DNA of 64,000 nt from assembly GCA_026874595.1 (NCBI GenBank), contig CM049320.1:17124988-17188987 (forward strand). The letters run 5' to 3'. Every line of letters begins with the position of its first letter. Position 1 is the stretch's first letter. A program made the position numbers and the translations under genes. The notes beneath the pieces were generated by a model. That model was given only the letters and a program-made list of their open reading frames with translations. It was not told the DNA's origin and made no database searches. Below, piece by piece: positions 704 to 59,339 of the stretch. The stretch is from Sipunculus nudus (Eukaryota > Annelida > Sipuncula > Golfingiida > Sipunculidae).

Positions 704-841
704 CTGGATCTCCAATGGGTCTAATGGAACCGATCCTTCCGCCTAGTTTCAGCTGAATATCAGTGATGTCCAACGCCGCCCCGGGGATAAGTGCAAACAG
801 GCTCCCTTTGTAGTTAATGTCAGAGTAGATGGCCCAGCATT
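704..841 (-). CDS. Exon: beta/gamma-crystallin-like motif
   Basis: The exon is 138 bp, phase 1-1, with an AG acceptor read at 843-842 and a GT donor at 703-702. It encodes 46 residues. A tryptophan and IY-SD open it, then NYKGSLF, a central IPG, and the closing GGRIGSIRPI. The Y-x-G bend and the S-I/L-R-P-I ending are the signature of a beta/gamma-crystallin Greek key. The calcium signature of the family (N/D-N/D-x-x-S/T-S) reads G-G-R-I-G-S here, so calcium binding looks lost. Only one motif lies in the window; its partner would be in the next exon beyond the left edge. Confidence 0.75.
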
Positions 842-3800
842 CTAAAAAGAAAAACCAAGATCTGATGCTAAAATTTTGTATTACAGTTTTCGATTTTATA
901 CATTATTTGAAAGATTCATAAACCGGGCGGAGTACAGACTGAACGCCGTGTCCACTTTGGGGAATTTTCGGTAACATTGCAAACCTCAAGGTTAATCGGG
1001 TGATTATTTCTTTTGTCTTGTAGCCGTATATCTGCGATTAAAAAAAACATAATTTTTGATACAACATATTTGTCCCGACACTAGCCAAATTGGAATGTTG
1101 TTTGGCCATTAAATTATCTTTTCGAAAATAAATGGAGGTACCAGATGTAAAATGTACCACTCTCCGTAAGAGGCAACATTATCACTTTATATGTCAGATT
1201 TTCCACAAGAATCAAAATGTTCAGTTTTTTTATTAGATTGTTCAAAAAAGGCCAAATTTTCAATTTACATGCCAGATTGTCCGAAGGAGGCAACCTTTTA
1301 AGTTTATAGGCCATACTGTTCAAGGGAGGTAAATTTTTACTTTATATATGCCAGATTGTCCAAAAGAATCAAAATGGTAATTTTATATGTCAGATTGTCC
1401 AAAAGAGGCCAAATTATCAGCGTTTATGCCAGGTTTTCCAAAAAGAGGGAACATTTTCAGTTATTTTTAGAAACACAGTAACTTTGAGACATACCAGTTC
1501 GAACACACATCTCATTAATTATTTAGGAAGATATTGTCATTTTAAAGGGGTCTATTTCGATATTTGTGGTCGATTAACTTAAAGGGGCGAAATCACCTAT
1601 CTGACCTTTATAAACTAAAGGTAATCACTTTGAGCTTCTATATAAAAAGGCCAGAAAACGTGGATATCACAGGCTCCTTGTTTTGCTGATATAAACGTGT
1701 TTATATATGTTGGGTCCCGCCAATATAAAACAATTATACAAGGGCATCTGGCGGTAAGTCAGGAAAGGCAGAGCTTTTTAATTGGCATTTTGCAACAAGT
1801 GACATTTTTACCTCTGCATATATGCAACCTACCATTTTAGGTTACATGTTTTTCCCCATTTGTCAACAATGCTGTGTTTACAAACATGTTGTTGATAAAC
1901 AAGATTATACAAACTTGGCAAAGACGGAATAAGAATTTTTCATAATCAGAATTACTCCTAGATTATTGACAATATACAGAGGAAGCTAGAAATCAAATAA
2001 ATTGTTGGTAGGTGAATGGGCAGCTTTAAGATAATCCTCTTAACCTTCTATATGTGAAATGACGACACATGTTGTGCATTTGGTTTAAATTCACATGTTT
2101 ATATAATATATTGGGGGCCCGACAAAATAATTCAAACGCATCCAACACGGGCATCTGGCAGCAAGTCAGACAAATCTTGAGAGTTTTGCAGCTAGTGACC
2201 GTTGACAGTGGCTGATCCAGGTGTTTGCTGTACAAGGGCACAGTGGTAAGAAAGAAATCAGCATATCTATAAATAGGAAATCAAATGTCTCAAGCAAATA
2301 TAACAAGACCATGTGTTCAGTTGCCCATATCCTAAATAATGCCAATTGTCAATCCGACGATATATAAAGCCAAAAAAAAAAAAAAGCGTTTGTAGGCCCA
2401 AATGAGGGCAAAAAAATAAATAAAAGAAAAATTATAAATTGCATGTATTAAAAATAAAACTAAATGCAAATAAACTGTAACAAAACTGAATGTAGTCAAA
2501 AAGATGTGAGTGGCGTCTGACAGTGCATTGACCAAGAGGTAATTCGCGTTTCCAGGCACTGGGTTGCTTTGAGTTCTCTTAAAAGGGAAATATGGCTGAA
2601 CCTTAGGTTAGGAAGAATTGGTTATATAAGAAATAGTGAGGAAGGGGATTATCTTGGTATTAGAATGATCTTTTATGTTATTAATTCCAATTTAATTGAC
2701 TGAAAGACACGTAGGAGGTATGCTGGACAAAAGAAAAACAATGAAATCTAAGGGGGGGGGGGGCACGAGCCCTGTGGTTTACATTACTGCATTGACATTA
2801 CAATCAATTACATTGAAACTGCCCACGGACGACCCGTAACAAATCAAACAACCTCTAGTTTTAATGGCCAAAAAAAAGGGTGAAAACTCTCAGAGAAAAA
2901 ATTATATAATGAGTTTGGAATACGTTAGTCTTGGTTTCAGTAATCATACTGTCCTCTGCGCCACGCATATTTTTTTTTATAAAGGAAAGGTTCATGTTTT
3001 CATAAAGAAGCCATGTAAAAGTACTTTTTTCCCACTGTCACCCTCGGCCTATCCAACAGACTTATAAACATCAATTGTTGAACTTCTTAAAGACTGGTAC
3101 CTTTCTCATAAAAAGCATACTCTCAAGAAAGTCACCTAAAATCTCCTAGCAGGCCTTCCGATGCGATGGTTACAAGTCTTATACAGTGACGTTTTGAAAT
3201 AATACAGCTGTTGTCATTTTGACTGTAGTGACTTGTTCGTCTTAAACCAACTTGAAGTGGCAAAACATATACTTACTTGATGGAAGCCTAGGCGCTGCTG
3301 GAGGGGGCTCATAGTCTGGAACAGAATTAATCAGTTATTAAATAATATACCCCTAATTATACGCTGAGATTGAATTTTATATAATCAGCTATTAATACAC
3401 AATGGAACATCGAAATTACGATCACCAACTAGACCTCGATATAGTGGTTGCATTATCGAGGGGATCGTCTAAGCGAAGTCTGATATAAAGGGAAAATCGA
3501 ATTAGGACCGTGAAAAAGTGGTCATTATACTGAGGTGGTCGCTAAACAGAAATGGTCGTTAGTAGAGGTTTTTCTGTATATACAATATTTATTAATAAAT
3601 ACTAACAGCAATGTAATGGTTCTATTCCCTGTAACATCAAACCGAGCAAATTATTTTTAGAGATAATTTACTTTAAAATAATACCTTTCAATAATGTTTT
3701 AGAAAGTTGCTTATGGAAGTGAAGACCTAATATTGCAATCACTAATGTAATACGAAATCTCCAGCTTATGTTTCTACCGTATGGACTTCATTAAATGAAT

Positions 3801-5965
3801 AAACAGGCCAGACCTGCACGGGTAGCCATTTTTGTTTTTGCTAGTCATATATGACGTCATCAAGCTATGCATGACGTCATCCAGTCATACATGACGTCAT
3901 CCAGTCAGCAGATGCATATTGAGGATGTTTTTACAGGTGATCAATGACCTAGACCGCTTTATGTGGGCTGATAATTGGTGAAATGTAGACGGATTTCTCA
4001 TATCCTTCTTAAATATATTTCTTAAATACGATTCAAGATAAATGTTTATCTTCCTTGCGTAAATTAGATCTATCGCCCATGATGCATTTTTCCAAAGAAC
4101 TATAAAAAAATATTCCCCAAAAGCAGGCAGACAGGAGGCAAGGAACAGACTATAACAGTTTTTGAAAGACACAAACAGCTATAGTCCATTTCATCCACTC
4201 ATGTCCACCTGTATTTTGCTATGAAAATTTTTAATAGTTACATTTCAAGGGATTCAATTGTAGTGTAGAGGATTAAAGGACCTAATTTTCAAAAAGGTAA
4301 ATAAATACCTACCTAACACCTTATTTTAGACACAGAATTATTTGAAAATATGAGAAATATGTCTACATTTACCACATATCAGACCCACTTATGGCGGTCA
4401 AGGTCATTGGTCACATGCAAAAACAACCTCAACTGACAGCTTCTGTTTGGATGATCTCGTGTAAACACTCTAAAAAATATAACCAGCTAAAACAAATATA
4501 GCTACTTATGGAGGGACACATCATATCTGCCAGATCAAAGTGAAGAGACTAAAATGTTGTGAAACATAAACGGGGATTTATTGTAAGATCCTTAATTGCC
4601 ATATTAGGTTGTCACTTCCATATGTTTTTTCTTGGAAAATATTGAAAAATATAAACTTTTAAGAAAATCATCCACAAAAAACAGGTGGACAGCAGGTGGT
4701 GAAACACACTATAGTATTAAAATATTTATTTTTTAAAATAAGATGTCATTGGATCAGAATCACCGATTGGTCGATCGTGAAATCGCACCCGCACCGCGCA
4801 AAAAAAAAAGAGTCTGGCATTCTGACCGCCTCGCCAGTAAAGAAAGTCTTATTTGGAACATTCGTATATTTGCATCGTGAGATGTATATATATATATATA
4901 TTCGACAAAATCTTATTGGAGTCCAGTACCTTCATTCAATGTGACCGTAGTACTAACATGTAGATAATTTACTATGGCGGAGGTCAGTAACTTTGTAACA
5001 CGTATGCGGATTTTTAGATGAAAAACATTTGAAATTCTGCTGTTACAGGGATTATAGTTTTTAGATTAAAATATGCTTAATTCAGCTGAAGGTTTCACTT
5101 TTTTTTTTAAACATACATACTGACACATCGGGCCTCGCAGTCACGAAGGAATTCGAAATTGTTTGCGTTGCCCTGGCAACCGCCGTAGGTGAACTGCTCA
5201 CACCTGCCTGAAAACCTGTTGAAGTAGTACCGCTGCAGCAGTGATCGGCAGGGACCAGTAGCTTTATCCAGTATGCAAGGATTGCCGGCAGCACCCCCGA
5301 CACCACCACCGATACCACCACCGATACCAGCATTAATACCACCACCGATACCAGCATTAATACCACCACCGATACCACCACCGATACCAGCGTTAATACC
5401 ACCTCCGATACCACCACCGATCCCAGCATTAATACCACCACCGATACCACCACCGATACCAGCATTAATACCACCTCCGATACCACCACCGATACCAGCA
5501 TTAATACCACCACCGATACCAGCATTAATACCACCCCCGATACCGCCACCGATACCAGCATTAATACCACCCCCAATACCAGCACCAACACCAGCATTAA
5601 TACCACCACCGATACCAGCATTAATACCACCACCGATACCAGCATTAATACCACCACCGATACCAGCACCAACACCAGCATTAATACCACCACCGATACC
5701 AGCACCAACACCAGCATTAATACCACCACCGATACCAGCACCAACACCAGCATTAATACCACCACCGATACCAGCATTAATACCACCTCCGATACCAGCA
5801 TTAATACCACCACCGATACCAGCATTAATACCACCACCGACACCAGCATTAACACCAACGCCAGCGCCTCCTGAAAAGAAACAGAACCAAGATTAATGTT
5901 TATCATATGACATGTATTTACTGTAAACTCTAGTATCACTATAAAATTCGCTTATTCGTTAATCC

Positions 5966-6033
<68 letters not shown>

Positions 6034-9000
6034 ATATATTTATATATACATGAATGGTAAATTGTGCGCTGACAGACTGCACAAAAGAGGGACAATTGCT
6101 CACAGGATAATGCAGCAAATATATATGGAATGGGCTGACAAGAATTTCTGCTCAGATGCGGGCCGCGGGGAGGTTTCATTTAATGTTAACTCAGATATAC
6201 TAGATATTTTAAATACAATAAGACCCGGAAAAGAAACCAGCAAGTTACAGACCATTGTCTTTTTTGACCTTTATGCTATTAGCATTTGCCTCGTGTGTAA
6301 TTGTGATGGGTTGATGGTTCACAATTTCACACACATACACACACATTTTTTTCGAAGAATTCCCCCGCATTGAGTACCAAACATTCCAGATGAGAAATAA
6401 CAATTTTATCAAGGAAAGGGATCTGGTTTATAGCGATTGGAGTTTGTCCATGGTCTGTCTGGCCGCCTGTCCGTTCGTCCGTCTATCCGCTCTTCCGTTA
6501 ACAGGGCACAAATATAACCATAAGGCTATAAAGAAATAAAAGTTATGGCCCTAAGGCACCGCCCGCAACAATTTTAAACCACCGCATCAAAATTTTTTAT
6601 TTTGATTTTCAATAGAAACTTACCAATTTGGAGGTCTAGCCGCTCGGACATTTCTTTCAAGAAGATACAAAAATACATTTTGATAAAATTTCGTTTGTTT
6701 TGTAGTTCCTTTACTTGTTGAGCAAAAAACAAATCTGTTATTATCATGATTTTCCTGATCATATGATATTTTTTTATCAAAACCCAGGAAAAAGGTTAAA
6801 AGAAAATCGCCCGCCCCCATTGATTTCTAAAAAAAGTGCCCGAGAACCAAACCTTAAAATTTTTTGGCCTAAGGCAAAGGAAATTGAAACTTCACAGTCC
6901 TAACAGATGCTGTTTATATACCAAAAATTGGCTCAATTATGTTCTAAGAGTTACGGAGCGGAATGACTTGTTTCAGCATTAACTGATGTAAGTAAAATAT
7001 TATGGAAAAAATGCCAGATTTCTCAGTAAAGGCTTGTGGGGTTGTCATGCAATTTGACATGCTAATGAATCTTGAAGAATTTGTGACCACGCCAGCAATA
7101 TTTAAACTAAAACTGGTAAGGCACAAATCTTAACCGTTAGACCAGGGAATATAAAAACCTACAGACTTACAGTTCTTGATAATTCCTATAAAGAAATTCA
7201 AATGTGATGATTTTGATGCATATAAACACGTAGGAGTATGTCAGAAGCTCATGTATCCATACAAAAAAAACCCCGAATAATCAGTAAACCTGCATGGATA
7301 TACATGAAATTCAGATAGTTAATTGCTCTAGGAAAATTTTGCCAGCTGCAACAGGCTATTGGCAACACCCAGCTTCATTCTTTCTATTTCTAGCTGCAAT
7401 CTTTTGCCGAGCAGCAATCGCATGTCCCCTTACATTGCTGAACGGACTCAAAGACACAAGGACAGCACGGGTTCGGGGATATATCATATATGACGTCATT
7501 TAGGCGGAATTCTTATGCGTTTGCCGTGCGATAAAACGCAGAAATCCAGGACTGCTTGATTCCAAAACGGACGCGTGTGTTTGTCGTGTTTATGGTAACT
7601 AAGCCTCCCATAGAAGACTTAATCAGACACGCTGACAAGACGTCATGGATTCTTTAAGAGGTCAATGTAACTTATTTTCTTTTAGTTAAAAAATCACATG
7701 CCAAATATCTTAGGAAATGCTGGACCATTTATTATGACATTTGAAGTGATAATCTGGCATGACAGTTTAACGGCTTGAGAAGACTGTAGGCGCTATATAG
7801 AACTTATCAGATTTTATGCATTTTCACTTGTATATTTTAGAACGACAGCCGGGAAAGAAAAGTCGCTTTTTAAAACAATCAGCCCACGTCAAGATACGAT
7901 GGGATTTATCAGGCGACCTGACGAGAGTTCGCTATGCCCAGTGATTTCTGAGTTAGGGTGCAATCAGTGCAATGACACCGGTTTTTATATTTCGGAGGTC
8001 TAGCCCATGGTCGGCCATAAATAGGAGCCATTAGATCTGGAAAGTGTGTTAATTTTACTCGGGACTTCTAGCTTAAGTAACTGTGACCTCTAGCAAGATG
8101 TCTCAAATGAGCGTCATGGTCCAATGGCCACTGGTGAATAGCGCCTTGTGTTAGTTTTTTGGCCCATCTTGTTTAACCCCATTTCATGATGTGGCCTACT
8201 TTGAGTTACGCGACAAAAACGGAATATATGTTTTTTTTTTTAAAACTGTCGTATATCGTAAAAGTAATTCAGCTCACATTCTGTTCAGGCAAAGAACTAA
8301 AAAAATTCATAAGCTAGCAGGAAAAAAGTCCGTCATATAAGGTATAATGTTATATAAAACTAACAGCATTTCCCATTCGAACAAGCATACACACACGTAC
8401 ACACACATGCATATTGAATGATGTATGGCATGTAGCACAGCATGGTGTTCTCGAGAATAAATATATCTTTAACAGCATATTATTTGAACGCTAATTAATG
8501 TACCATCACAACTTATTTATCATTTTAAAGGTCTTGAGGTCTTCTTTCGAATTTTGATTCTTGCAAATTTACAGATCAAGTTTATTGCAGGAAAAATAAG
8601 CACAATACAAGAAATACATGCAGAATTTACCCGTTTTCATGTTTCATCCCTTTTTAAAGGGGTGTTTACATGTGCGCGTGTATGCGTATATGCGTGAAAG
8701 ATTGCTCATATGATTTTGTAACTGGGGTGTTTCCGTGTGTCCGTTAGCGTAGGGTGTGCGTGAACTCAGGGTTCAGGTTGAATGACGTCACCTCAGGATC
8801 TAATCTGCTATGTATATTAGTGTGCCAGTTCACGCACATACGCATTTACGCGCACATGGAAACATACCTTAAGCCCTTTAATTCAAACATGCTGTAAATT
8901 TTCTAAAGCAGCATTTCCATCTGCGCGTATTTGCGTGAAAAATAGGTGTGTTTCAATGTGCGCCTATATGCGTATACGCGTGAACTGGCAAACATATATA

Positions 9001-12000
9001 AATTTTACAGTGGATCAAGCAGACCTTTTCACAAAAAGATAGTGAAAATGAAGTCATTTTACTCTGAATCCCTGAGTTCACGCAGACACTGTGCCTTAAA
9101 AAATCGGACAGAGTATCGTCTGTAGATTCCGTCCCCTCTGACTGAGAAATGACCATTTTGACATTTTTCGAAATGTTATAACGTACACAATTGTGAACTG
9201 ACATTGATGAAATCACCCAAAATTGAAGAATATATAGTGTTCTTTCAGGCAATATTAGAGCCAATAAGAGCCAATAATTACTGTCTCAATTTGAGCATTT
9301 ACTTAAAAAATGCCAACAATTGTCAAATCAATAACATTCACTATGGCAAATATATATGTTTCAATAGGAAATTTTTCCGGAAATTTTTTACATCTGAAAA
9401 TGTCAGATCCTTATTCTTCCGAAAATAAGCTTACTAATAATGTGCAGAATATTGTTGTTCAGAAAACATGAGTCCCATGAGAAACAATCAAGAACACAAC
9501 ACTGAGCCACATGCCGTATTAGATTTATCCTTACCCCCACAGTTTCTCAGGCAGTCCACCTCAGACAGGAAGTTGTTGTCGTTGCCTTTGCAGCCACCGT
9601 AGTTGAAGGTCAAGCATCGTCCAAGCTTGTGACTGAAGTAATACCGCATCTTAAGGGAACGGCAGGGGCCAGGGTCAGCGTCCAGCGTGCAGGGGTTAAC
9701 CGGACCCTTTGACTTGTGGCCAAAACCTCCCAAGATTTTCTTGCCAAAGTCCCATGCCTTTTTCGCAACACCAAAAACACCTGGAAAGTAGAAGCACAAC
9801 ACCTGGTGTCGAGATTAAAAAATAGATTTAGATGAGATTATGCCTTGAACTTTGATATTCATGAAAAATTTTTAATGTTAAAAAAAAGGAGAAAAGATTG
9901 CCGAAGCATAAATAAATATGACAATGAGTAAAAAGTGTTTGTTTATTATTTTTTTTAGATGCAAGATTCACTTTCACATATATCATGAAAAAAATCAGAA
10001 ATGACGGCCCCTGGATAGGTTCCTTCGTATCTTTAACTCGTTGCAAGTTAAAATGTACAGTTATTAATCTAGATGTAAACATAACCAGCACTTTCATGTG
10101 TAGACTTTTCCCTGTAGGTACAAATTGTCTGGAAAGGCTGTCGTAAATATAACACGCGATGTCGCCCTTGGGGGATGGGAGGGGCCTTGCATAGCCCTAT
10201 GATGCACCCCTTGGCTACCATGGTAATATAGAATCGATGGCAAAACTTTACTGTTAACAGCGTACAGCACTCGTATCTGTGAGTCCTGACACCAGATGTC
10301 GCCACGTCATTCCTCAGTTAATTGCATTTTTATATGCATGTTTATACATGGCATTTTCGTGTCAACCATTTTCAAATTGTTTGTGACAAAAAAAATGACT
10401 GTCGTCCAAGGAGGAGAATGCTGTCATGGACGGTTTTTATTCTGGGATAATGGATGGATGGAACTAATAAAATTCTTACAGATCTAGTAAAGTAGTTATT
10501 TTCGAAGCTTAAGATTTGCTGAATATTGTGTGAATGACTTTTCATTGTGAGAAATTCCGGGTTAAAGTTATATAAATAAAACCAAAGGGAGAGGGTAAAT
10601 AGAGTGTAAGCGTTTAATTAAGGTTGTTTGCTGTGTTGGAGAAAGATGATGCCATACTCGATAATCAAATAATTTTGACATAAACTGTCTGAATTATAAT
10701 TATGATTTTTTTTTTCATATGGATCATCATATTACCTAATTCTCATGAGAAACTCATAAGATCATGTGGAATTCATGTGAGAAAATATTGATGAAATATT
10801 TAGACTTACGGATTTTCTTCCTTCCGTCTAATGAATTGTAGTTGGCTGAAAGCAAATAAAGAAACAATGAAAACACATTCCGCACATACTGGTGGTAGCT
10901 GCTGCACTCTGGCGGTGAACTTCATGACTACCTCGTTGAGCTTCAAATCTTCAAGCTTCATTATCAAAAAAACTTTCAGGTATTGCAGACTACTGTGCGT
11001 GATAAATGAACAACAATGACAATATTAATAATAAAATAATCTAAATTCAGCGAATTTGATGCCCGATCCTTTTCATCGAAAAAGACAGTATTGTAAAGAC
11101 CTCAGTATACAAGTATTTTTACAAACCTCAGTGTATTTTACATGCCTATCCGACACTGTACTGATATATGATTACGATTTCTTAAAATTTGTCTGATAAC
11201 AATTGCAATTACATGAAATATTAATGTAACTGATTAAGTTTATGATGGTTTTGACAAGTAATCATGATTTCTATCACACAAAAAAACACAAATTACATGA
11301 TGTTCTTGATTTATATGTGAACAAATGGACTATGAAGTCAAGCTAAATCCATTTTATCATTACACTGATTGGATACTTAGCAGCACCTTTCTAGACGGAA
11401 GATTTTCCCGGCAACACGTAAGAAATCTGTCAATTAATGCTGGTATTCGTTACTTATATTTCCTTAAATAAGCGAATAGACTATGAATTTAAGCTAAAAT
11501 CATTGCATTTTCACAGGTTAATGTGATATGCTCGTTACTTTTAATAAACTTTAGTATTTATAACTGGAAATGTCAACCTATGTTATTAACTTAAAAGAAT
11601 GTTCCAGAAACAAGCAAATAGTTTTATCTTTGACTGTAACATTCATAACCAGATCTTATATGTATCCTTAACTACGTATAACACTAATATAACTGATATA
11701 ACTGTGATATGTAGTTGATTACGATTACAATTACTCTATTCCGACACAAAGTATAAATGATTAAGTTTATAATGACTTATAATAATCCTGAAACAATAAC
11801 TAATTAATAACGATTACAATTACTTCACTCTGAAACAATATGTAACTGATTACAATTACAATTACACTTCAAGATGTAATAAGTTGACATAACTAATGGC
11901 AATTACTGCCTACGAATACCCCTACCCTGATTCCTATAATATTAGTTGCATGTAAATTAAACGTTAAGAATAAAAAAAAATGAAAAAATAAAATGCTGTT

Positions 12001-13187
12001 ACTCACGCATGCACGTCTCCATACACTCCTCCATGGTGACGAAATTGTTTCCATTTTTGTCACACCCTCCGAAGTAGAATTGTACACATACTCCCGCGGC
12101 CTTGTTGAAGTAATACCGAGGTACCAGCGGCTTGCATGGGCTCCTCGTGTCGGGTTTTCTCGGCTGCAGACAGACTGCTTTAGTGGACACTACTTCACCC
12201 ACCACGCTGACTAGAAAAATATAGTCAATTATTTTTTTAATACAGTAAAACCTCAAAATAACGAATATAGTCAGTTTTTTTATTACAGTAAAACCTTGAA
12301 ATAACGAATATAGTCAGGTTTTTTATTACAGTAAAACCTCGAAATAACGAATATAGTCAGTTTTTTTGTTACCTTTAAACCTCGAAATAACGAATATAGT
12401 CAGTTTTTTTGTTACAGTAAAACCTCGAAATAACGAATATAGTCAGTTTTTTTATTACAGTAAAACCTCGAAATAACGAATATAGTCAGTTTTTTTATTA
12501 CAGTAAAACCTCGAAATTACGACCACCGTTGGGACCTCGATAAAGCGGTCGCGAGGTGATCGTCCAAGGGAGGTCTGATATAAAGAGCGATATAGAATCG
12601 GGTCACGTAAAAAGTGATGATTATTTTGAGGTGTTCCCTAAGCCGAGGTGGTCGCTAAGCCGAGGTTTCAGTATATTATAACAAATGTGATAACATATGA
12701 TTTACAGTGTAAAAACATTTTAGATGGTATATGTACAAGCTTTACAATAATGATTACTTTAATTACATAACAACACTATGTATCACGGCATGAATCTTAC
12801 TCTCGTCATACCCTGAGCAAGCATGTATAACAATGGTTTTACCGTCGTTGGTTTGGTTTTTGGTTAGTATTTCTGTACCCAACTTAAATAAAAGTTATGG
12901 ACGGAATTTGAAATGGGCAGGAGGGGTTTGACTACATGTATAACTCTATATATTATAAATAAATTATATTATATGTTATTTTTTTATTATTTATCATGTT
13001 TCGATGAGAACTGTATCAAACACTTACTTCCTCCGGACACAGGCATTGCGATATTTCCTGAAAAATAAAAAAAACACTGGCACCTACATTTCATAAGTAT
13101 GTCTTTGTCGTTTCTACAATATACTTCCATTCTTGTGGGACAACAGTAATTATATATTAATAATGCTTATACATGTACAACTGCTGT

Positions 13188-13234
<47 letters not shown>

Positions 13235-14091
13235 TTGCTACTTCTCTTCTACTTTTAATAATAATAATGTAACAATCATACTAATAATAATAAAAATAAA
13301 ATAATAATAAATATCAATAGCATTAATAATAATAATACTTTTTTCAACATTACCATCAGTGTTATTGTTCCTGTTGGTTGTGGTGTTTTTATAATAATTA
13401 TTATAACATGAGTGATTATAATTATCTGTTTTGTGGAAATATGTCAATTTGAATGAAATGTCATTACCGACGCATTGTCTTTGACAAGCTCCTAGATTTG
13501 GAAAATTGTTTGTGTTTCCCCCTTCTCCTGTATATCTGAAAAGCCGACAGGAACTCGAAGCGCTGTCGAAATAGTAACGGGGTACATTGTCAATGCCGGT
13601 GCCAAGGTCACGTGGGAGGTCACAGGGGTCATCCTCTTTTTGGGCCCTTGCTGAAAACGGAATAATGTCTTAGCATATGAGGAAATACCCGAATTGGTAT
13701 CATCACACACTTCCATACACAGAAAAACACCAAGACACATACACCCGAACATACAATATGCCTGCTACATTAAATGATGGAAATTAGGCAAAAAAATAAA
13801 AGGTATGTTTCTCAGGCACCGCCCGCGTCAATTTGACCCCCCGCACCAAACATTTTTATTTTGATTTTTATCTTACAAGAAGATAAACAATACAATTTTT
13901 GTTGTGCTTTTATCTGTTAAGCAAAAATTGTTATTTTCATGCCTTTCCCTGACCATATGACATTTTTATCGAAACAAAAAAAGGTAAAAAAAATATTACC
14001 GGCCACTCGCCCTGATTTCTGAAAAAAAAAATTCCTGAGAACCATACCTTTTTATGTAATATGTGTAGTGCATATAAAAATTCATATATAT

Positions 14092-14190
<99 letters not shown>

Positions 14191-17100
14191 AGAGTGGGGT
14201 ATTTTAAGAAAAGGTAAAAATATAAATTTTACGACTCATCGTCATATATTTGTCAATGACCTGTGGTTAAGATTAAGTAATTCATAAAAAAATGATATAT
14301 CCATCCTCTTTATTATCTCAGTACACTTAAATACCCTTAACACTTAATAAATATGTATTTAAATAAAAATAAACATGTATTATTCTTAATAGATATATGA
14401 ATTTTCCTAGCAGTCTAGAGCTAGAAAAGAGTCATCTATTTGATGAAAAGAAAAAAGAACCCAATGACTGTGGCATACTCTTGTTTACCACTACCACTCT
14501 TTCAATATCGGAGGGGAGGGGGGGGGGGGGGGTGATCACATTGCTAAAAAGAAGGGGGAAAGATATATATCTCATCCCCCATATTGATGCTCCTGACTCT
14601 TAATTAATATTTAAGAACTTACGGTTGCAGGCCTTGTTACAAGAGTTCATGGTCAGAAAGTTGTTGTCGTTGGCACCGCAGCCGCTGTAGCGGAAAACTT
14701 CGCAGGCGCCGGTTTTCTGGTTAAAGTAAAATCGTGAGATTTCATTCTGACACGGCCCAACGATCTTAGGCTGAAAGCAGGGGTCCTCATCCTCGTACAA
14801 TAGACCTGAAAGATAATACGCATGTTATTTATCTATATTTATATACCTAATTACTTATGATTTCCTGTCTAATTACCTATCTGAGCTAATTTTTTCTGTT
14901 TCTTTTTTTTGCAAGTGAATAGTTTATTGCTTTTGTTTATTAAAATTATGGATCTTGTTTTGCTTTCGTTGAACATAATTAAAATCGAAACAATTTTAAT
15001 GAAAATCTTTTGAAAATAAGAAAACCTAAACCTAGGAAATATTTCCTGGTATATTTTTGAAATTCGGATTAAAATTATCACTCATGCACATTTTTGATAC
15101 ACATTTACATTTACAGTTTCGAGGAATGAACTATTTTATAATTAATTTTTTTAACGTTTTATTTTAAAACCTCTTGACCGATCTAAAGGCGTATTTTCTT
15201 TTATAGATAGTATGAAAAACTACAGATATTTTAAAATTGACAATTTTGCAGCAATCGTTTTTAAACTAACACAGTTTATTGACAATCAAAAGTTCTATAA
15301 GTCTTTTGTTTTGGCCAAGGTCAAAGTTGAAGGTCATAAAAAACTTCAACATTTTATTTTCATAATAACTTTTTCAATATTGCACCTTTCTTCACAAACC
15401 TTGGCTCATTTTCTTCCTCTTCGTCCTTTTAATAACTTAACTCTAAGCTTAATTCGACTAAGCTTAGTGTCACTTTATCAGTATGTCTGTCTGTATGTCA
15501 GTTGTCCTCAATTTCCTCTGCTTGCTGGTTCTTGTCTTTGATAAATAGCATTCTACAGACTAGTTATACAGGAATCACTATATAACTTACACAAATCGTA
15601 TATCGGACATTTCCAGGAAGCTGTTTGTGTATAGATAGATCAAACTTCGAGGTCAAGGTCATCAAAACACTTATGTTTCTCATAACTTTGTCAATATTGG
15701 TCCTATCTTTACAAACTATGGCTCATTTTCCTCTTTGCCTTCTTTAGGAAATGATAGAGTTAACTGATATTCAGTCATTCTGCTGTTACTTTGGTTACAG
15801 ATTTTTAGGGAAAGCTCATGAAGTATAAAAATATATTTCTCACTTTGCCATTTGTTAAGTCATAGAGGTCTAGTTTTTGTCACTTGAAGCTCTTGATAAG
15901 TTTTCAGTGACCCAGCTGCAAATTTCTCCATATTTCGCACCGTTTCTCGTCAAACAAGAAAAAAGTGAGATTTCCCGAAAAAAGCTTACATCTCAGTTAC
16001 TCAATGTTTAAAGGTCTAGTTTTTTACATTTGGTAGCATTTGACTTGTTTGATATGATAAATATCCCGACATTTCTAAACAAACGAGAATAAACGAGATT
16101 TCACGTTTTAGCAATAGGGGCCAAGATTTCGACAGTTGGTAGTACTTAAACTGCTTGATATGAGCAAACTGCAAATCTCGCGAAATCTGGCGATATATTT
16201 TAGAAAAGAGAACAAATGAGATATCTAGGTAATGTTTATAACTCTTTCAAATTCTACGCTAGAGAGGTCTAGTTGTTGACATTGTGTATCATTTGACAAG
16301 CTTGACATGATAAATCTGCAATTAATGCGAAATCTGTCGACATTTGTGGACAAACAAGATTTCACGAAATGGCTATAATTCAGTGATTCTTTATTTACTA
16401 GAATGGTCTAGTTTTCTGCATTGGGTATTATTTGAATATTACTTAATATTTTCTCTCCCACCTTAAATTGTTTATTTTGTCTATTTCCGACCTCTGGTCG
16501 TTTAGTATTTTTAGTTGCTCAGATAACGTTGGAATTAATATTTTTTTATTAGCCAACGCCTCTGCTCAAACCATTATAATTAAAATACTGAATAATTAGT
16601 ATATTTCTTATATGTTTACGTTTGTTTTTGGAAAAATATTAATTAATGGAACAAGCAGGGACTTGTGGAGATAAAGATGTATATAATGACCACGCGGCCC
16701 TGTGTTGAATTGTTGAAACAAATGCCCTACAAGGCATGACGCTCAGCTGAATTCAAGGAACCTTGAACAATGTGTAAAATGACTCACAGAAAGCTCATAA
16801 TCATGCATTTTGCCAATAGTCCGTAGAAAGAGGGGTTATAGTTACCTTATTTAAGGATTCCAAGAAGAGTTTATCAGGAACTCCCTAGATTCAAAGTTAG
16901 AAGATTCTTCGTCCAACTGCTACAATTTGTGCCCATCTTACTAATTCATTACTAAAATCATGTTCTTTCACATAGCTCGCAAAATATAGATCACTGACAG
17001 AGTGACAGTATTTGTGTTTCCAAGATTTTTTTTTTACAGAAACCTCCATGGATCTTAATCAAATCAGAAGTTTCTAGGTCCAACTGCAACCAATCATGCA

Positions 17101-18230
17101 AATTTGTCCTATAGGTTGCTGAAATCATGTTCTTTCACATATCTTGCACAATATAGGTCACCATGACCTAAATTCAGGTTTCCATAAAGATTAATCCAAG
17201 ACTTCCCTGGATATAACCTTAGAAATTTTTAAGGTTAGCGGGTACAATTTGTGTCCCATCTGACTCACTGGGTGCTTAAAATCATGTTTTCGGCATGTTT
17301 TCGCAAAATAAGTTACAATGACCTAATTTCAAGTTTCCATTTGTCTAACCCCCCCCCCCCCCCCCCCGATGTAAAGTCAGAAGTTTTCTAGGTCTAACGG
17401 TTAGGCATTGTGCCCTGTTAAAAGGCGGACTGCTTCATTTGAAGGTCCGAAAAATAGAGAAACTTCAGGAACTGATGAAATACTCCATGGTCAATATGCA
17501 TGGAAATAATCATGTCAACCCATGCATTAGTATTTCAGATACTGGAGATTTTGTATCAAATTTCTAAATATTCTTGGAGATACTTACGTGCCCAATAGCT
17601 CAGAGGATATTGGTGGCAGGGCCTAATTTCAGGTGTCCGGGGAGATGTCAAGTTAAAGTTTTTAGGGTCAGCGGTTAAGCTTTGTGCGCTGTTAACGGAC
17701 GACCGGACGGACGACGGACAAGGAATGATCGCTATAGTTCAGATGACTCTCAGTCAGATGAGTTTAAAAAACAGTGTTTTCAGTTGTAGGAAAAGTCTCC
17801 AAAATTTTGGAGAGAACATAAGATGTTGGGGCGTCCGAAGTGGAGGGGCCCCTGTCAAATTTGAGGCATTTTGTAAAATTGTATCATATGCTTTAATATA
17901 TTACATAATTATGGTAAGATTATATATAATGTCATTATATGATTATATGAATTATGATGATAAAGGTCAGCTGTCAGTTTTTTTGTGCAGTGTTTACACA
18001 GTTTAATGATTTGAGGTGGTCGGCATGGTTTAGTGAATACTAGAAGAGCCTGTCGGTCCTACAACTAGAAACCCGCGCGTTCGATGGGAAACCCAGAACC
18101 GAGCGTCCGAAAGACATTTCTCGCGTCGCAGACGCTTGCACCCGGTTCCTAAGCCTTGATAAATGGAAATTCAAGTGAACATACCTGCGACCAGGGAGGC
18201 CAGAAGCAAGAAAAGTCCTGCCCTCAACAT
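704..18230 (-). CDS. Secreted multi-Kunitz / Gly-rich / beta-gamma-crystallin-like mosaic protein (gene level, 3' end outside window)
   Basis: Ten coding exons on the minus strand join in one frame: 18230-18185, 14805-14623, 13650-13468, 13057-13028, 12210-12007, 10845-10810, 9780-9535, 5870-5121, 3315-3277, 841-704. Together they give about 618 residues with no stop and continue off the left edge. Every internal junction is phase 1, so each exon is a movable symmetric cassette. Domain order: signal peptide (about residues 1-16), Kunitz 1, Kunitz 2 without the 14-38 disulfide, a 10-residue linker, Kunitz 3, a 12-residue linker, a basic Gly/Lys segment with Kunitz 4, about 194 residues of Gly-rich repeat with Kunitz 5, a Pro-rich linker, and a crystallin-like motif. 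Kunitz domains usually inhibit serine proteases; here only Kunitz 4 and 5 keep a typical basic P1 with a permissive P1'. Gly-rich plus Kunitz mosaics suggest an extracellular matrix, mucus or shell-type secreted protein; that role is inference. I recognise no named orthologue. Confidence 0.82.
842..3276. other. Intron of the Kunitz/crystallin gene
   Basis: No further exon is seen. The intron holds a degenerate tandem array at about 1088-1455, two copies of a dispersed repeat (about 1735-1930 and 2130-2215), and a G-run at 2751-2763. Short open frames here lack splice sites or family motifs. Confidence 0.55.
1088..1455. repeat. Degenerate tandem repeat, period roughly 50-60 bp
   Basis: The phrase GCCAGATTGTCCAAAAGAGG, followed by CAAAAT and an AT-rich TTTATA block, recurs about six times with substitutions (near 1195, 1240, 1270, 1310, 1350, 1390, 1428). 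The units are too diverged to set an exact period by eye. No ORF follows the period. Confidence 0.65.
3277..3315 (-). CDS. Micro-exon: Pro-rich linker
   Basis: The 39-bp phase 1-1 exon has acceptor AG at 3317-3316 and a consensus donor GTAAGT at 3276-3271. It encodes about 13 residues with a PPPAAP run. The split codon from the previous exon completes as Asn, and the last base plus the next exon completes Lys directly before the Cys-Trp of the crystallin-like motif. It acts as a spacer between Kunitz 5 and that motif. Frame agreement on both sides is the main support. Confidence 0.72.
3410..3592. mobile_element. Pogo/Tigger-like MITE, diverged copy
   Basis: About 180 bp align by eye with the element at 12501-12672. 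Shared words are ATTACGA, ACCTCGATA, GATCGTC, TCTGATATAAAG and a GGTGGTCGCTAA block near the right end, which closes with GAGGTTTTTCTGTA. CAGT termini and a TA target are typical of pogo-like elements. The left terminus is degraded. Confidence 0.55.
3851..3900. promoter_or_regulatory. Triple CRE palindrome, exact 20-bp spacing
   Basis: The ten-base palindrome ATGACGTCAT occurs at 3851-3860, 3871-3880 and 3891-3900, each with the full CREB/ATF core TGACGTCA. The 20-bp period is about two helical turns, so the three sites face the same side of the helix. They lie in the intron between the Gly-rich/Kunitz 5 exon and the linker micro-exon. A short tandem duplication is the likely origin; enhancer function is inference. 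Confidence 0.55.
3901..5120. other. Intron, nothing further recognised
   Basis: AT-rich DNA without convincing exon signals. Open frames at about 3897-4172 and 4696-4944 show no domain motif and no matching splice borders. A short (TA)n lies near 4886. Confidence 0.5.
5121..5870 (-). CDS. Exon: Gly-rich repeat domain plus Kunitz domain 5
   Basis: The 750-bp phase 1-1 exon has acceptor TTTCTTTTCAG ending at 5871 and donor GTATGT at 5120. The correct frame gives about 194 residues of repeats built from G-G-G-I-N-A-G-I and close variants (about 18 N-A-G units), then a Kunitz domain. Its six cysteines run from codon 5277-5275 to codon 5127-5125, 51 residues, the same span as in BPTI. The reactive loop reads GPC-R-S (P1 Arg, P1' Ser), suited to a trypsin-like protease, followed by YYFN and YGGC. 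The other minus frame (5082-5939) and a plus frame (5273-5896) are also open because the repeat is periodic in threes; splice phase and the Kunitz domain select the Gly-rich frame. Confidence 0.85.
5281..5868. repeat. Coding minisatellite, 24-bp based units
   Basis: Tandem units of 24 bp (eight codons), with 12- and 18-bp variants, encode the Gly-Ile-Asn-Ala repeat. The variants mix in a higher-order pattern, for example insertion of G-I-G-G or V-G-A-G blocks. All units keep the reading frame. Such arrays usually vary in copy number between alleles, so protein length may be polymorphic. Confidence 0.85.
5968..6049. repeat. (TA)n microsatellite
   Basis: About 82 bp of nearly pure TA repeat, interrupted twice by TTT, in the intron upstream of the Gly-rich exon. 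Confidence 0.95.
6545..6865. mobile_element. MITE family with CTCAGGCACCGCCCGC-type end, copy 1
   Basis: It shares, in order, a GGCACCGCCCGC block, a TATTTTGATTTT block, an AAGAAGATA block, a GAGCAAAAA block, a CATATGA block and a terminal GAGAACCAAACCTT with the copy at 13799-14050. About 300 bp, non-coding. The left end here is less well preserved. Confidence 0.6.
6866..8656. other. Intron, no gene recognised
   Basis: No exon with family motifs and splice borders was found. A single TGACGTCA palindrome lies at about 7491-7498. The region 7840-8110 is less AT-rich but has no supported ORF. Confidence 0.5.
8657..8870. mobile_element. MITE with about 42-bp terminal inverted repeats and TAA duplication
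   Basis: The left arm (about 8657-8698) and the right arm (about 8828-8870) are inverted copies that match at about 37 of 43 positions, sharing CATGTGCGCGT and TGCGTGAA. TAA precedes the left end and follows the right end, as expected for a PIF/Harbinger-type 3-bp TWA target duplication. There is no coding capacity. Related ends occur near 8905, 32290 and 39780-39832. Confidence 0.72.
8904..9092. mobile_element. Second, rearranged copy of the GTGCGCGT-TGCGTGAA MITE family
   Basis: It starts after TAA with AGCAGCATTTCCATCTGCGC, carries two consecutive terminal-repeat-like blocks, and ends near an internal block (CCCTGAGTTCACGCAGACAC) that recurs inverted at about 32345-32365. It looks nested or truncated next to the intact 8657-8870 element. 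Confidence 0.5.
9535..9780 (-). CDS. Exon: basic Gly/Lys segment plus Kunitz domain 4
   Basis: The 246-bp phase 1-1 exon has acceptor CTACTTTCCAG and donor GTAAGG. The first about 27 residues are Gly/Lys-rich (VFGVAKKAWDFGKK). The Kunitz domain follows with standard spacing: C1 and C2 are eight residues apart, the loop is GPC-R-S, then YYFS, YGGC-KGNDNN, and C5/C6. P1 Arg with P1' Ser predicts trypsin-like specificity. The exon ends just after C6 with a Gly codon split into the Gly-rich exon. Confidence 0.87.
9781..10809. other. Intron, nothing further recognised
   Basis: AT-rich intron between Kunitz 4 and the upstream micro-exon. Short open frames at 9828-10305 and 10296-10487 lack domain motifs and splice borders. 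Confidence 0.5.
10810..10845 (-). CDS. Micro-exon: 12-residue basic linker
   Basis: The 36-bp phase 1-1 exon has acceptor TTTGCTTTCAG and a perfect donor GTAAGT. It encodes a short hydrophilic stretch ending in GRKKI and keeps frame between Kunitz 3 and the basic start of the Kunitz 4 exon. Because it is symmetric it could be skipped without a frame change. It has no independent domain support; confidence rests on strong splice sites and frame. Confidence 0.68.
10846..12006. other. Intron with diffuse GATTACAATTAC-type repeats
   Basis: From about 11150 to 11880 the words GATTACAATTAC, AACTGATTA and TGATTAAGTTTAT(A/G)ATG recur several times with variable spacing. This resembles a decayed tandem or dispersed repeat. 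No exon was found. Confidence 0.5.
12007..12210 (-). CDS. Exon: Kunitz domain 3 (SPC-K-P loop)
   Basis: The 204-bp phase 1-1 exon has acceptor TTTTTCTAG and donor GTGAGT. All six cysteines are present with YYFN, FGGC and NGNNF. The loop between C1 and C2 is eleven residues instead of the usual eight, and the P1' residue after P1 Lys is Pro. A proline at P1' is normally unfavourable for canonical inhibition, so this domain may be structural or bind another partner. The 3' splice region lies next to the 43-bp array at 12243. Confidence 0.87.
12243..12500. repeat. 43-bp minisatellite, six exact-length units
   Basis: Units start at 12243, 12286, 12329, 12372, 12415 and 12458, each exactly 43 bp, and the next position (12501) is the left end of a pogo-like MITE. 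Each unit is about half MITE terminus (CAGTAAAACCTCGAAATAAC) and half host-like sequence (ATATAGTCAG plus a T-run). A partial related copy lies at 12217-12242, next to the Kunitz 3 acceptor. The array therefore looks like amplification of a MITE/host junction. Confidence 0.85.
12501..12672. mobile_element. Pogo/Tigger-like MITE
   Basis: About 172 bp begin CAGTAAAACCTCGAAATTAC and end near CCGAGGTTTCAGTA, next to TA. The middle carries a GGTCGCGAGGTGATCG stretch. A diverged copy is at 3410-3592. No ORF, hence non-autonomous. The superfamily call rests on the terminal CAGT(A/G)AAACCTCG motif. Confidence 0.68.
13028..13057 (-). CDS. Micro-exon: 10-residue linker
   Basis: The 30-bp phase 1-1 exon has acceptor TATTTTTCAG and donor GTAAGT. 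It encodes a neutral segment with MPVSGG. The split codons complete as Gly on the Kunitz 2 side and Ile on the Kunitz 3 side. As with the other micro-exons, splice-site quality and phase are the evidence. Confidence 0.68.
13188..13234. repeat. (TAC)n microsatellite with adjoining (AAT)n tract
   Basis: About 15 TAC units are followed, after a short break, by AAT/ATA-rich triplet tracts up to about 13340. It lies in the intron between Kunitz 2 and the micro-linker. Confidence 0.92.
13468..13650 (-). CDS. Exon: four-cysteine Kunitz domain 2
   Basis: The 183-bp phase 1-1 exon has acceptor CCGTTTTCAG and donor GTAATG. Without gaps it aligns to the Kunitz fold: DPC opening, PRYYFD, FRY, NNF and the closing C-Q-R-Q-C. 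The position of BPTI Cys14 is Gly (LGTGID) and that of Cys38 is Glu (YTGEGG). The other four cysteines, which make the 5-55 and 30-51 bridges, remain. Loss of exactly the two partners of one bridge suggests a stable but non-inhibitory domain. Confidence 0.84.
13799..14050. mobile_element. MITE family with CTCAGGCACCGCCCGC-type end, copy 2
   Basis: About 250 bp with terminal inverted repeats: AAGGTATGTTTCTCAGGCA on the left and TCCTGAGAACCATACCTT on the right. The internal blocks are shared with 6545-6865 and, inverted, with about 57225-57475. No ORF. Confidence 0.68.
14093..14188. repeat. (CA)n(TA)n compound microsatellite
   Basis: About 36 bp of CA repeat runs directly into about 60 bp of TA repeat in the intron between Kunitz 1 and Kunitz 2. 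Confidence 0.95.
14510..14594. mobile_element. Fragment of G-rich hAT-type MITE
   Basis: A G-run of about 16 bp, TGATCACATTG, ATATATATCTCATCCCCC and a terminal ATTGATGCTCCTG match the right half of the element at 23550-23988. The left end is missing. Confidence 0.55.
14623..14805 (-). CDS. Exon: Kunitz domain 1
   Basis: The 183-bp phase 1-1 exon has acceptor TTATCTTTCAG and donor GTAAGT. Six cysteines are present with standard spacing, a GPC-Q-N loop, FYFN, YSGC and NDNNF. P1 is Gln, not Lys or Arg, so trypsin inhibition is unlikely. The exon opens with an acidic stretch (LLYEDEDP) right after the predicted signal peptide. Confidence 0.88.
15850..16460. repeat. Degenerate tandem repeat, period about 130-150 bp
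   Basis: The phrase AGAGGTCTAGTTTTTGACAT, followed by TTGGTA...TTTGACTTGTTTGATATG and a CGAGATTTCACG-type end, recurs about four times with heavy divergence. No ORF follows the period. Confidence 0.6.
16660..17725. repeat. Dispersed repeat of about 1 kb with GGACGGACGACGGACAAGGA tail
   Basis: It contains internal tandem segments of about 170 bp (AAATCATGTTCTTTCACATA ... GCAAAATATAG) and a tail with ACGGACGACCGGACGGACGA, then GATCGCTATAGTTCAGATGA. The tail recurs inverted at about 48545-48640, and an internal block (GAAATACTCCATGGTCAATA) recurs at about 51265-51320. It looks like an old non-LTR or MITE-like family; class undetermined. Confidence 0.6.
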
Positions 18231-18277: not shown

Positions 18278-18979
18278 CTGAAATAAATAAACAAATCATT
18301 CAATCAGTACTGTCATCAATCAAATTTGCTTTATTTTCTATAAGCTATATATTGTGTCCGAATAACAGTGTCTTAAACCAAATATAATCTTCAGACGAAC
18401 AAGACAGTGTTTTTACATATGCGTATGTGCCTTAAGTTTAAACTTAACTTAAAACATAAGCTCGAAAAAAGTTTGAAATTCCAGATTAACACGCGTGTTC
18501 GGGTCTTATTTGTATAGTCCACGATGGAGCTGTAAATTCACATTAGACCCTTTAAAGTACACATCATTTAAAAATTGGCACTTTGTTCTTTAACCTTTCA
18601 TTTATTTCAACATGATTTTGTAACATTTAAAAAATATTTAAAAAGCTAACTTATTTAAGCACCGAGTAACAGAAAGCCACTTTTTAGTTAACTACTATCA
18701 AAATTTATGACAATATCTCGGAAGCGTTTTTTTTTCCTATTTATAATACCCATATTATGTTGAGCAGCTTCGCTCTATCATAATACTGTATTTTGGTCTG
18801 ACAAAAGGCCTTAATTATATAGAGTTCTTAAGGTTTCATCATATAATTTATATTTTACTGAGCTCTCTTATTACCCCATTATTCACGTGATCTTACAGTG
18901 ATAAAATAATTAATAAAGATTAGTGAACAACATTAATATTTAGTAAAATTTGGTTGAAGCCGAACAAGACGATACTTAC
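18278..18979. other. First (5' UTR) intron
   Basis: AT-rich, about 700 bp. It is bounded by the donor GTAAGT (18979-18974, minus) and the acceptor before 18277. Nothing else was recognised. Confidence 0.5.
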
Positions 18980-25096: not shown

Positions 25097-25871
25097 GTAC
25101 GTACAAACCCAGAAACAAACAAAAATACTAATCTTTTGTGAAAGATGCATTTTATTTATTGTTTTTAGTGTATTTTAAGGCCTTGATTATTATCAAAGCT
25201 GAATATTCGGAGATCATCGGCACGCTATTATTTATAAGATTAATATTATTTTAGAATAAAGAACGGCTGTAGAATTTCATCAAAGGGCTACTGTGCACCA
25301 TGCATTCTATTGAGTAATTTTTAATTCATTTGGGACCTCTGAAATCATTGAATGTGAGAAATGTAATGATTTTATAGTATACGATCCTATGGTCTGCTCA
25401 AACGTCGACAAAATATAGACCCAATACTTTCTATTAGGTACTATTTATATTGAGAACTGGTTTATATTTATATTGTTTGTGACTAATACTTGAAAGTGAC
25501 CAATTCTTAAGAAAAAAAGAAATGCGCATAAATAATTAGTTTGAATACATTGTAAAATCCTTTATTCATGTCTAATTCTTTTAAGATTGTGTTACATGTG
25601 TAAACGTCTGTAGTTTCCCATGGGCGCCGTTATCTTTTGTACCCGCGTTCCCGTATGGAATCAACGGTTGCCATGACTACTGCTGTAAGACATGTTACCG
25701 GCCATTATTGTATGTTTACGTGCAATCTATACCCGGGCTGCCGGGCGGTCAATCATGGACAAGCTGGTCAGTGTGAGCTGGCCATGACGTCACCAGTTGC
25801 CAGGACAGTGACACCAGCGTGGACAGCTTACATCGTATTAAGTGAAAATGCAAGTACTCTGCAGGACTTTG

Positions 25872-25942
<71 letters not shown>

Positions 25943-28900: not shown

Positions 28901-29828
28901 TCTTGAAAAAAATCTTGATTATGATGTAATCGATTGTTGCCTTTGGTAATCGAGCGCTTGGAACTGACAGCAAACCGACTGAATTTCGATAAATCTCGAT
29001 GATCGGCCCTCCACTACTCATTACCCCTATATGACATTGTCAGATATGCAGCATTTTCCCTTAATAATACCTGAATCTAGATGAAGAAGAGCCACATTGA
29101 AAGCATACACACTCAGGATAAATGTGCTGCCATGTGGCGTGAGTCAGTAAACAAGGCAGCCCATCATTTTTATAAGAGCTGCCTTGTTTACTGATTTCAC
29201 ACTAGGTGGCAGAATATGACAAAAATAAATTTAAATCATTTTTGGATCCGGATTGTGATATAGATCACCCTCAAATTTAATCAATTGTTCCTTGCATCAA
29301 TGCCGAGCTATCCTAAAATTTTCATGAAAATTTTCGTTTCTAATCTTTTGAGTAATGTTGCAAACAGACAAACAAATACTCAAACAAACAAACAAACAAA
29401 TAAACGCCCTCAGAAACATAACCCTCGCCGCTTTGCGGAGGTAATTAACATGTGAATGTTAAATATCATGAACTTTAAATGAAGTCAATTTAATGATTAA
29501 AAGATATTAAGATATTATTATTATTTTTATAATTATATCATATATATTATATGTTATTATGATCATTATTATTATTACTATTTCAGATTATGAAAAGAAT
29601 TTCTGGATTTCCGGAAGAAAAGTCGGAGGCCAGTGGATATGGAATTCGACAGGAGAGCCAATGGGTTATACATCTTGGATGAACGGACAGCCGGATGAGG
29701 TCCTGGGGCCGTCTGAATGTGTCCGGATGCTGTACCTCGGCGTCATCAATGGGTGGGATGATACTAAATGTCACTTCAAGCAAAAGACTATGTGTGAGAT
29801 ACAGGCCCAGCGCTACGTTCTGGTGTGA
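25045..29828 (+). CDS. Secreted PAN/apple-like plus C-type lectin protein (gene level, complete)
   Basis: Four coding exons (25045-25096, 25614-25874, 27845-28036, 29587-29828) join through three phase-1 introns into about 248 residues. Domain order: signal peptide (MSLFLFITTLFSLLAG), a cysteine-containing segment resembling PAN/apple folds (about residues 19-105), and a long-form C-type lectin domain (about 107-240) split over the last two exons. The lectin domain has six cysteines, QPD at the calcium/sugar site and WDD where WND is usual. QPD is generally linked to galactose-type binding. Secreted lectins of this kind often act in immune recognition or mucus; that role is inference. A TATA box and a downstream poly(A) signal frame the gene. 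Confidence 0.84.
25097..25613. other. Lectin intron 1
   Basis: AT-rich, about 517 bp, phase 1. No other feature seen. Confidence 0.6.
25614..25874 (+). CDS. Lectin exon 2: PAN/apple-like segment
   Basis: The 261-bp phase 1-1 exon starts after TCTGTAG and ends before GTATAT. It encodes 87 residues with the pattern HYCMFTCNLYPGCRAVNH then GQCELA, that is C-x3-C-x4-GC-x-A-V-N...C-x-L. This is the core of PAN/apple-like domains, which bind proteins or sugars. The donor lies directly against a (TA)n tract. Confidence 0.72.
25875..25939. repeat. (TA)n microsatellite at splice donor
   Basis: About 62 bp of TA repeat starts immediately at the exon 2 donor, so the donor GTATAT is formed by the first repeat units. 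Confidence 0.92.
25940..27844. other. Lectin intron 2
   Basis: About 1.9 kb with no exon recognised. It holds a dispersed-repeat tail near 26850-26912 (GGATGGACAGACAAACCCAA then CCGTACCGAGGAAGCGGGGG) and otherwise AT-rich DNA. The plus frame 27365-27562 lacks motifs. Confidence 0.55.
27845..28036 (+). CDS. Lectin exon 3: N-terminal half of C-type lectin domain
   Basis: The 192-bp phase 1-1 exon has acceptor CATACTCTAG and donor GTAAGA. It begins CPFGYGHVF, gives the extra N-terminal cysteine pair of long-form domains, then CYKV, TWPQSRAEC and SDLVAVENEREQ, the classical first-helix and W/LA region. Confidence 0.86.
28088..29445. mobile_element. Transposable-element-derived intron between lectin-domain exons
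   Basis: The block opens with GCAGACCTCCGCCAAGGCAG and closes with GCCGCTTTGCGGAGGTAA; the two ends share an inverted ACCTCCGC-AA-G core. The right part has GGATCCGGATTGTGATATAG and a (CAAA)n tract before the end, a layout common to an old repeat family of aquatic animals. An inverted AATCGATCATCG / CGATGATCGATT pair lies at about 28143-28188. Further repeats may be nested. Confidence 0.45.
29587..29828 (+). CDS. Lectin exon 4: C-terminal half of C-type lectin domain and stop
   Basis: The acceptor TATTTCAG ends at 29586; the TGA stop is at 29826-29828. It encodes FWISGRK, WIWNSTGEPM, SWMNGQPDE, SEC, NGWDDTKC and TMCEI. QPD is followed by Glu, and the second calcium motif reads W-D-D rather than W-N-D. 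All C-terminal cysteines are present. A short tail (QRYVLV) follows the domain. Confidence 0.88.

Positions 29829-40839: not shown

Positions 40840-59339
<18,500 letters not shown>

Follow-up and report, generated by a model that had tools for sequence, protein, structure and literature searches.

What kind of protein would join a series of Kunitz domains, a glycine-rich, silk-like repeat and a crystallin-like motif in one chain, and does one gene in fact encode it? The question arises from the minus strand of a 64,000-nucleotide stretch of the Sipunculus nudus genome (contig CM049320.1, positions 17,124,988 to 17,188,987; hereafter the window), where a first-pass annotation had described ten coding exons as a secreted mosaic built of symmetric exons. 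Read from the DNA, this is apparently one secreted, single-copy animal gene, larger than first described.

Gene architecture

Direct reading confirmed all ten exons at their positions, in one frame, with phase-1 introns and in the order first proposed. AG precedes nine of them (all but the first), GT follows all ten, and the joined frame runs without a stop to give 618 amino acids, every intron being in phase 1. At the 5' end, the start exon (SP, 18185..18230) carries an ATG and a hydrophobic, signal-peptide-like MLRAGLFLLLASLVA(G); this start is the evidence for the predicted secretion. Its putative 5' UTR extends to 18277. A putative intron in the 5' UTR was also read directly (18278..18979, with an AAGCG/GTAAGT donor after 18980 and a TTATTTCAG/GTTTC acceptor before 18277), as was a probable non-coding first exon with its 3' end at 18980. 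Downstream of SP lie the Kunitz exons K1 (14623..14805) and K2 (13468..13650), a 30-nt linker exon (L1, 13028..13057), K3 (12007..12210), a 36-nt linker exon (L2, 10810..10845) and K4 (9535..9780), in which a basic lead-in precedes the Kunitz domain. The next exon (Gly+K5, 5121..5870) opens with a 196-residue repeat of G, I, A, N and V and ends with a further Kunitz domain. A 39-nt Pro-rich linker exon (3277..3315; NYEPPPAAPRLPS) then leads to CRY1 (704..841), which encodes a candidate beta/gamma-crystallin-like Greek-key motif and whose frame continues to the left of the window.

All ten exons are thus present, but they are not the whole gene, since the window cuts it. The left flank was covered as six 10-kb stretches of the same genome, with open reading frames listed in the nearest 20 kb, splice sites read for three of these frames, and a pattern scan alone in the farther 40 kb. 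Extension to the left, which the first-pass annotation had proposed as a check, carried the frame through three more phase-1 coding exons, 0.76-7.97 kb beyond the window on the same strand, to a TGA stop. The first of these, CRY2 (contig positions 17124070-17124231; 162 nt, 0.76-0.92 kb left of the window), encodes a possible second Greek key; a 318-nt exon (17118856-17119173) encodes a 106-residue module; and the Cys-rich last exon (17117021-17117127) ends in the TGA, with ATTAAA about 150 nt further on. The complete model comprises 13 coding exons and 12 phase-1 introns, encodes 813 amino acids with 43 cysteines, and adds the non-coding first exon; introns of the gene measure 410 to 4896 nt. 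One gene assembled out of phase-1 modules would accordingly yield, in order, a signal peptide, K1-K4, the 196-residue repeat, K5, the Pro-rich linker, a Greek key with a possible partner motif, the 106-residue module with its five cysteines and a short tail with seven.

Also on the minus strand, about 1414 bases left of window position 1, stands a 33-nt phase-1 exon candidate (TVAGNFDLNL) that may be a further linker. It was left out of the model although its splice scores match those of the Pro-rich linker.

The confidence due to each exon was gauged by scoring phase-1 exon candidates on both strands of 124 kb, with generic splice-site weights taken from general knowledge rather than trained on this genome. 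CRY2 has the top summed score of all candidates of 90-400 nt. The score of the 318-nt exon is not exclusive, being reached by 27 minus-strand entries (many of them nested) and three plus-strand entries in the same 124 kb. When acceptor and donor thresholds were set just under each linker's own values, no plus-strand candidate appeared in the 124 kb, and the minus strand returned, apart from the linkers themselves, just a truncated form of CRY2 and the 33-nt candidate mentioned above. Relaxing the criterion to a summed score at the level of the Pro-rich linker admits 12 minus-strand candidates, seven of them inside the gene, and one on the plus strand; the linker exons are therefore likely to be real, though less certain than the domain exons. 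Low generic scores are found at K1, K2 and K3, at the Gly+K5 donor (-1.8, the lowest of the model) and at the last acceptor. Because the scores are modest at K1, K2, K3 and the Gly+K5 donor even though the domains there are beyond doubt, a splice score is to be taken as a rough guide.

Kunitz domains

In a Pfam scan of the 618-residue protein, Kunitz_BPTI (PF00014) matched five stretches with 271.5 bits against a cut-off of 21 (E 2.2e-82), and all five exons recur among the at least 150 Kunitz matches listed for the genome. Individually, K1 scored 64.5 bits (with one wrong flanking letter in the query) and K2 62.1 bits. The original count of five domains is borne out by these matches, with the reservation that K2 is incomplete: the full set of six cysteines occurs in four of the five (K1, K3, K4 and K5), while Gly and Glu stand at the Cys2 and Cys4 positions of K2. 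In K3, the first loop is longer by three residues. K4 and K5 form the closest pair, with 58% identity, compared to 35-43% for the nine other pairs.

Kunitz domains are known as inhibitors of serine proteases, as the first-pass annotation noted. An inhibitory Kunitz site combines a basic P1 with a small P1' residue, and Arg-Ser is a usual form in trypsin inhibitors. As read from the sequence, P1-P1' is Arg-Ser in K4 and K5, Lys-Pro in K3, Gln-Asn in K1 and Ile-Asp in K2. Only K4 and K5 have Arg-Ser, and these two are the candidate inhibitors of trypsin-like proteases.

Conkunitzin-S1 lacks the Cys2-Cys4 pair, and the same loss in K2 would fit a protein in which some Kunitz domains target ion channels like conkunitzins and dendrotoxins. 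Such a function is very improbable here: in the PDB, SmCI and boophilin match K2 ahead of conkunitzin-S1, which comes third (1e-12), and a large mosaic containing a silk-like block is hardly what a channel-acting protein would look like.

The glycine-rich block

The block of 196 residues consists of five residue types only (105 G, 40 I, 25 A, 18 N and 8 V), arranged in units that are mostly 8 and 12 residues long and of the IGGGINAG and IGGGIGGG type. In its DNA the units recur in tandem, at periods of 24, 36 and 60 nt. Between 5228 and 5896 the array is open in other frames as well, as expected of a repeat that contains no stops: two lie on the plus strand (222 aa, Pro-rich, and 209 aa), and one of 289 aa, rich in Val and Leu, lies on the minus strand.

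A Gly-rich low-complexity block is also found in the silk-like structural protein abductin. Kinship with abductin was considered and dropped: its repeat is slightly similar, and a nine-letter piece of that repeat was not found in the open-licence papers examined.

A tandem DNA repeat of this kind is what one would expect if the block were a spacer grown by slippage in a soluble inhibitor with several Kunitz domains, active in body fluids or immunity, to which the crystallin part would add stability. Five tandem Kunitz domains suit such an inhibitor, as does the abundance of Kunitz matches in the genome (at least 150). K5, moreover, matches 139 PDB sequences at E <=0.001, and the best of these are the multi-Kunitz inhibitors SmCI, TFPI, boophilin and bikunin. 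With Arg-Ser reactive sites in only two of the five domains, however, and with a 196-residue run built of just five kinds of amino acid and terminal Cys-containing modules that would be unusual for proteins of this class, we consider a soluble inhibitor possible but rather unlikely.

The crystallin-like part and the C-terminal modules

CRY1 aligns with positions 42-82 of the Pfam model Crystall (PF00030), that is, with its second half. The match amounts to 21.3 bits for the exon alone, 17.6 bits within the 618-residue protein and 19.6 bits for CRY1 and CRY2 together, under the cut-off of 25 in each case. The domain-HMM search that had been suggested as a check was therefore conclusive for Kunitz_BPTI but sub-threshold for Crystall. 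Against the PDB, CRY1 matches gamma-D crystallin with an E of 0.0025.

A more specific comparison used a Greek-key profile made from 13 further motifs in this genome, which were drawn from 20 Crystall-match loci after omission of CRY1's own locus, two wrong-strand loci (L026, L028), three near-copies (L029, L033, L038) and L036. Against this profile the CRY1 open reading frame ranks first of 2310, with 15.3 bits and a runner-up at 6.0, and none of 2000 shuffled exon peptides equals the true score of 17.7 bits. A beta/gamma-crystallin-like Greek key, as first suggested for CRY1, is thus supported by sequence comparison as better than chance, although it falls short of the Pfam cut-off. Taken together, the exon, frame and domain evidence supports the original picture of a mosaic of symmetric exons, in which Kunitz domains, a Gly-rich block and a crystallin-like motif follow a signal-peptide-like start.

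CRY2 scores 1.0 bit against the same profile, a value reached by 30 of 2000 shuffles, and a Pfam scan of the C-terminal part at E <=10 gave no match to it. A PDB alignment to gamma-S crystallin extends from CRY1 into CRY2, at a weak E of 0.043. As the match of CRY2 is weak, we infer only tentatively that CRY1 and CRY2 may pair as one Greek-key domain. The calcium motif of crystallins, (N/D)(N/D)xx(S/T)S, is absent from both, the corresponding residues being GGRIGS in CRY1 and GAVIKS in CRY2.

Beyond them, the 106-residue module (five Cys) and the C-terminal tail (seven Cys) have no Pfam match at E <=10, a search in which HMMER filters drop most weak matches, and their best PDB match reaches only 0.12. 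By eye, CRGFIQAPNGKCRF had hinted at a PAN/apple identity for the module; on these Pfam and PDB results that identity was not adopted.

One gene or two

An in-frame stop follows both K5 (SMYV stop, with AATAAA at 4730) and CRY1 (GKTRLS stop, with AATAAA at 469) when either exon is read through, so shorter transcripts are possible. The first of these stops lies only a few codons beyond the K5 donor, the weakest-scoring donor of the model, and would be compatible with two genes or alternative products, in which case a Kunitz-Gly-Kunitz protein would stop after K5 and the crystallin part would be a protein of its own. A second gene would need a start of its own. Only one signal-peptide-like start exon was detected in the 27.5 kb scanned at the thresholds used, and this is the SP exon itself; none occurs between K5 and CRY1. 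The scan required a donor score of 3.5, and because six of the 12 model donors score below this value it supports one gene without proving it. The CRY1 open frame has no ATG ahead of the motif, and all exons have phase 1 in common. Two products are, on balance, improbable, and we infer that a single gene is expressed as one transcript.

Occurrence elsewhere in the genome

The genome searched amounts to 1.43 Gb in 153 contigs. In protein searches against it, the sole match to the CRY1 exon was the exon itself (one of one candidate), and the 106-residue module found itself and one match of E 6.7 that holds two stops. Neither the CRY1 exon nor the module has a credible second copy in this genome. 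The Pfam search for Crystall gave one match at E <=0.001, which lies elsewhere than this locus; at E <=10 there were at least 34, and CRY1 was 20th of the 34 listed (E 0.33). Among the 34 Crystall and 150 Kunitz matches listed, only seven Crystall matches share their contig with a Kunitz match. The spacing between Kunitz and Crystall is 4.4 kb here, and 583 kb in the closest other pair among the matches listed. In four stretches near other long-frame Kunitz exons (contigs C1 and C3), no open reading frame exceeded 25% Gly as a mean over the whole frame, a measure that can miss a short block. To judge from the matches listed, the combination of Kunitz and crystallin domains seems to occur once in this genome.

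Both domain types have their own distribution. The at least 150 Kunitz matches, which are accompanied by at least 141 C1q matches (PF00386), include several clusters on contig C3. The beta-sandwich domain of mollusc haemocyanin (PF14830) had no match in this genome, a result of little weight given that 14 control genomes yielded none either. The C1q and haemocyanin results would suit a bivalve, large C1q sets being a bivalve trait and haemocyanin being absent from many bivalves. Exons with beta/gamma-crystallin motifs are clustered at C9:14761431-14824845, and others occur on C8 and C5.

Other features of the window

Several features of the window lie outside the mosaic gene. Candidate lectin exons occupy 25604-29828 (+), where a PAN-like stretch, which falls short of the 21.4-bit cut-off with 16.9 bits, possibly belongs to a separate gene; farther on, a C-type lectin domain scores 53.4 bits once two exons are joined by hand. 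At 33395-37764 there is a tandem duplication in which 34959-35309 and 36488-36838 are identical at 351 of 351 bases. Its open reading frames at 35003-36001 and 36532-37764 appear near-identical by eye across their common part, and a 410-aa frame within the duplication has no Pfam match at E <=0.1. Minus-strand open reading frames at 44908-51784 were judged by eye to resemble an ionotropic glutamate receptor. Of the two that were scanned with Pfam, 50079-50504 (-) reaches 44.2 bits against Lig_chan-Glu_bd, and 44908-45324 (-) gives nothing at E <=0.1.

Relation to known proteins

The tandem Kunitz arrangement is shared with the multi-Kunitz inhibitors SmCI (4bd9), TFPI, boophilin and bikunin, which supply the best PDB matches of K5. 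To our knowledge, these proteins lack a Gly-rich block, a crystallin motif and C-terminal modules rich in Cys. Papilin carries TSP1, Ig and PLAC domains beside its Kunitz domains. It resembles the present protein in placing Kunitz domains within an extracellular mosaic, and has been reported from the Perna shell proteome (available part of PMC6641155); the mosaic described here differs in having no Ig, PLAC or TSP1 match (Pfam, E <=10, 618-residue protein and C-terminal parts).

Closer parallels in setting come from mollusc shells. KCP of Haliotis, whose entry in PMC6003135 also lists R/C/G/L, and Tcr_824966 of Tridacna are Kunitz-containing shell proteins thought to protect the matrix (PMC6003135, PMC8217771), and their descriptions, in the portions of these papers available, include no crystallin motif. 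More broadly, protease inhibitor domains including Kunitz are reported in mollusc shell proteins and believed to protect the matrix (parts of PMC8217771 and PMC8382897). Kunitz proteins are not general in shells, since the shell proteome of the pearl oyster Pinctada fucata contains neither a Kunitz nor a WAP protein according to the accessible part of PMC4660305. A crystallin motif in an extracellular mosaic is known from a Perna shell protein that combines XTALbg with ETX_MTX2 (PMC6641155, in part); its partner domain is ETX_MTX2, whereas the present protein has Kunitz domains and Gly repeats and no Pfam match to ETX_MTX2. Kunitz and crystallin domains sit on different proteins in the Perna shell, as far as the available text of PMC6641155 goes. 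In the corresponding parts of PMC6003135, PMC8382897, PMC8217771 and PMC4660305, the term crystallin turned out to stand for 'crystalline'.

Gly-rich low-complexity blocks recur in Cara7LA (PMC4944945) and the shematrins (PMC8217771, PMC4660305), again going by the parts of these papers available. Fusions of Gly-rich blocks to globular domains are described from biological materials, and silk-like proteins sometimes have a globular domain attached (PMC4944945, in part); the present protein differs by its IGGGINAG unit and by having Kunitz domains at both ends of the block.

The first-pass annotation knew of no described protein with this combination, and a search of the open-licence literature agrees in that no single protein with both Kunitz and beta/gamma-crystallin domains was found there. 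Papers retrieved for Gly-rich Kunitz proteins dealt in general with shells, byssus and ticks. The mosaic is thus a variant of secreted extracellular mosaics already known as a kind, in a combination that is undescribed in the open-licence literature. Since lineage-restricted domain combinations are frequent in mollusc secretomes (PMC8382897, in the part available), the surprise is a moderate one.

Proposed role and significance

From the reports of Kunitz domains in shells and of Gly-rich blocks joined to globular domains, the protein may be read as a secreted structural component of an extracellular material, with K4 and K5 as its protection. The material might be shell, periostracum, byssus, mucus or egg coat, and we give this role about an even chance. 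The Gly-rich block would serve as a flexible or elastic spacer and lend the material compliance; K4 and K5, which flank it, would inhibit trypsin-like proteases and so shield the material; and K1-K3 together with the C-terminal part would act in packing or binding. A bolder version, which we hold to be doubtful, is that of a new material protein, with an elastic silk-like spacer, protease-inhibiting heads at both ends, a crystallin-based C-terminal anchor and an undescribed family represented by the 106-residue module. If it were true, mechanical support and protease defence would be built into one chain.

Should transcripts confirm the model, the gene would be a clear example of exon shuffling in phase 1, by which protease inhibitors, a silk-like repeat and a crystallin fold are brought together in one secreted protein. 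The 106-residue module would offer an unassigned target for structural work, and the gene as a whole could serve to test the idea that Kunitz domains act as built-in protease shields of animal biomaterials.
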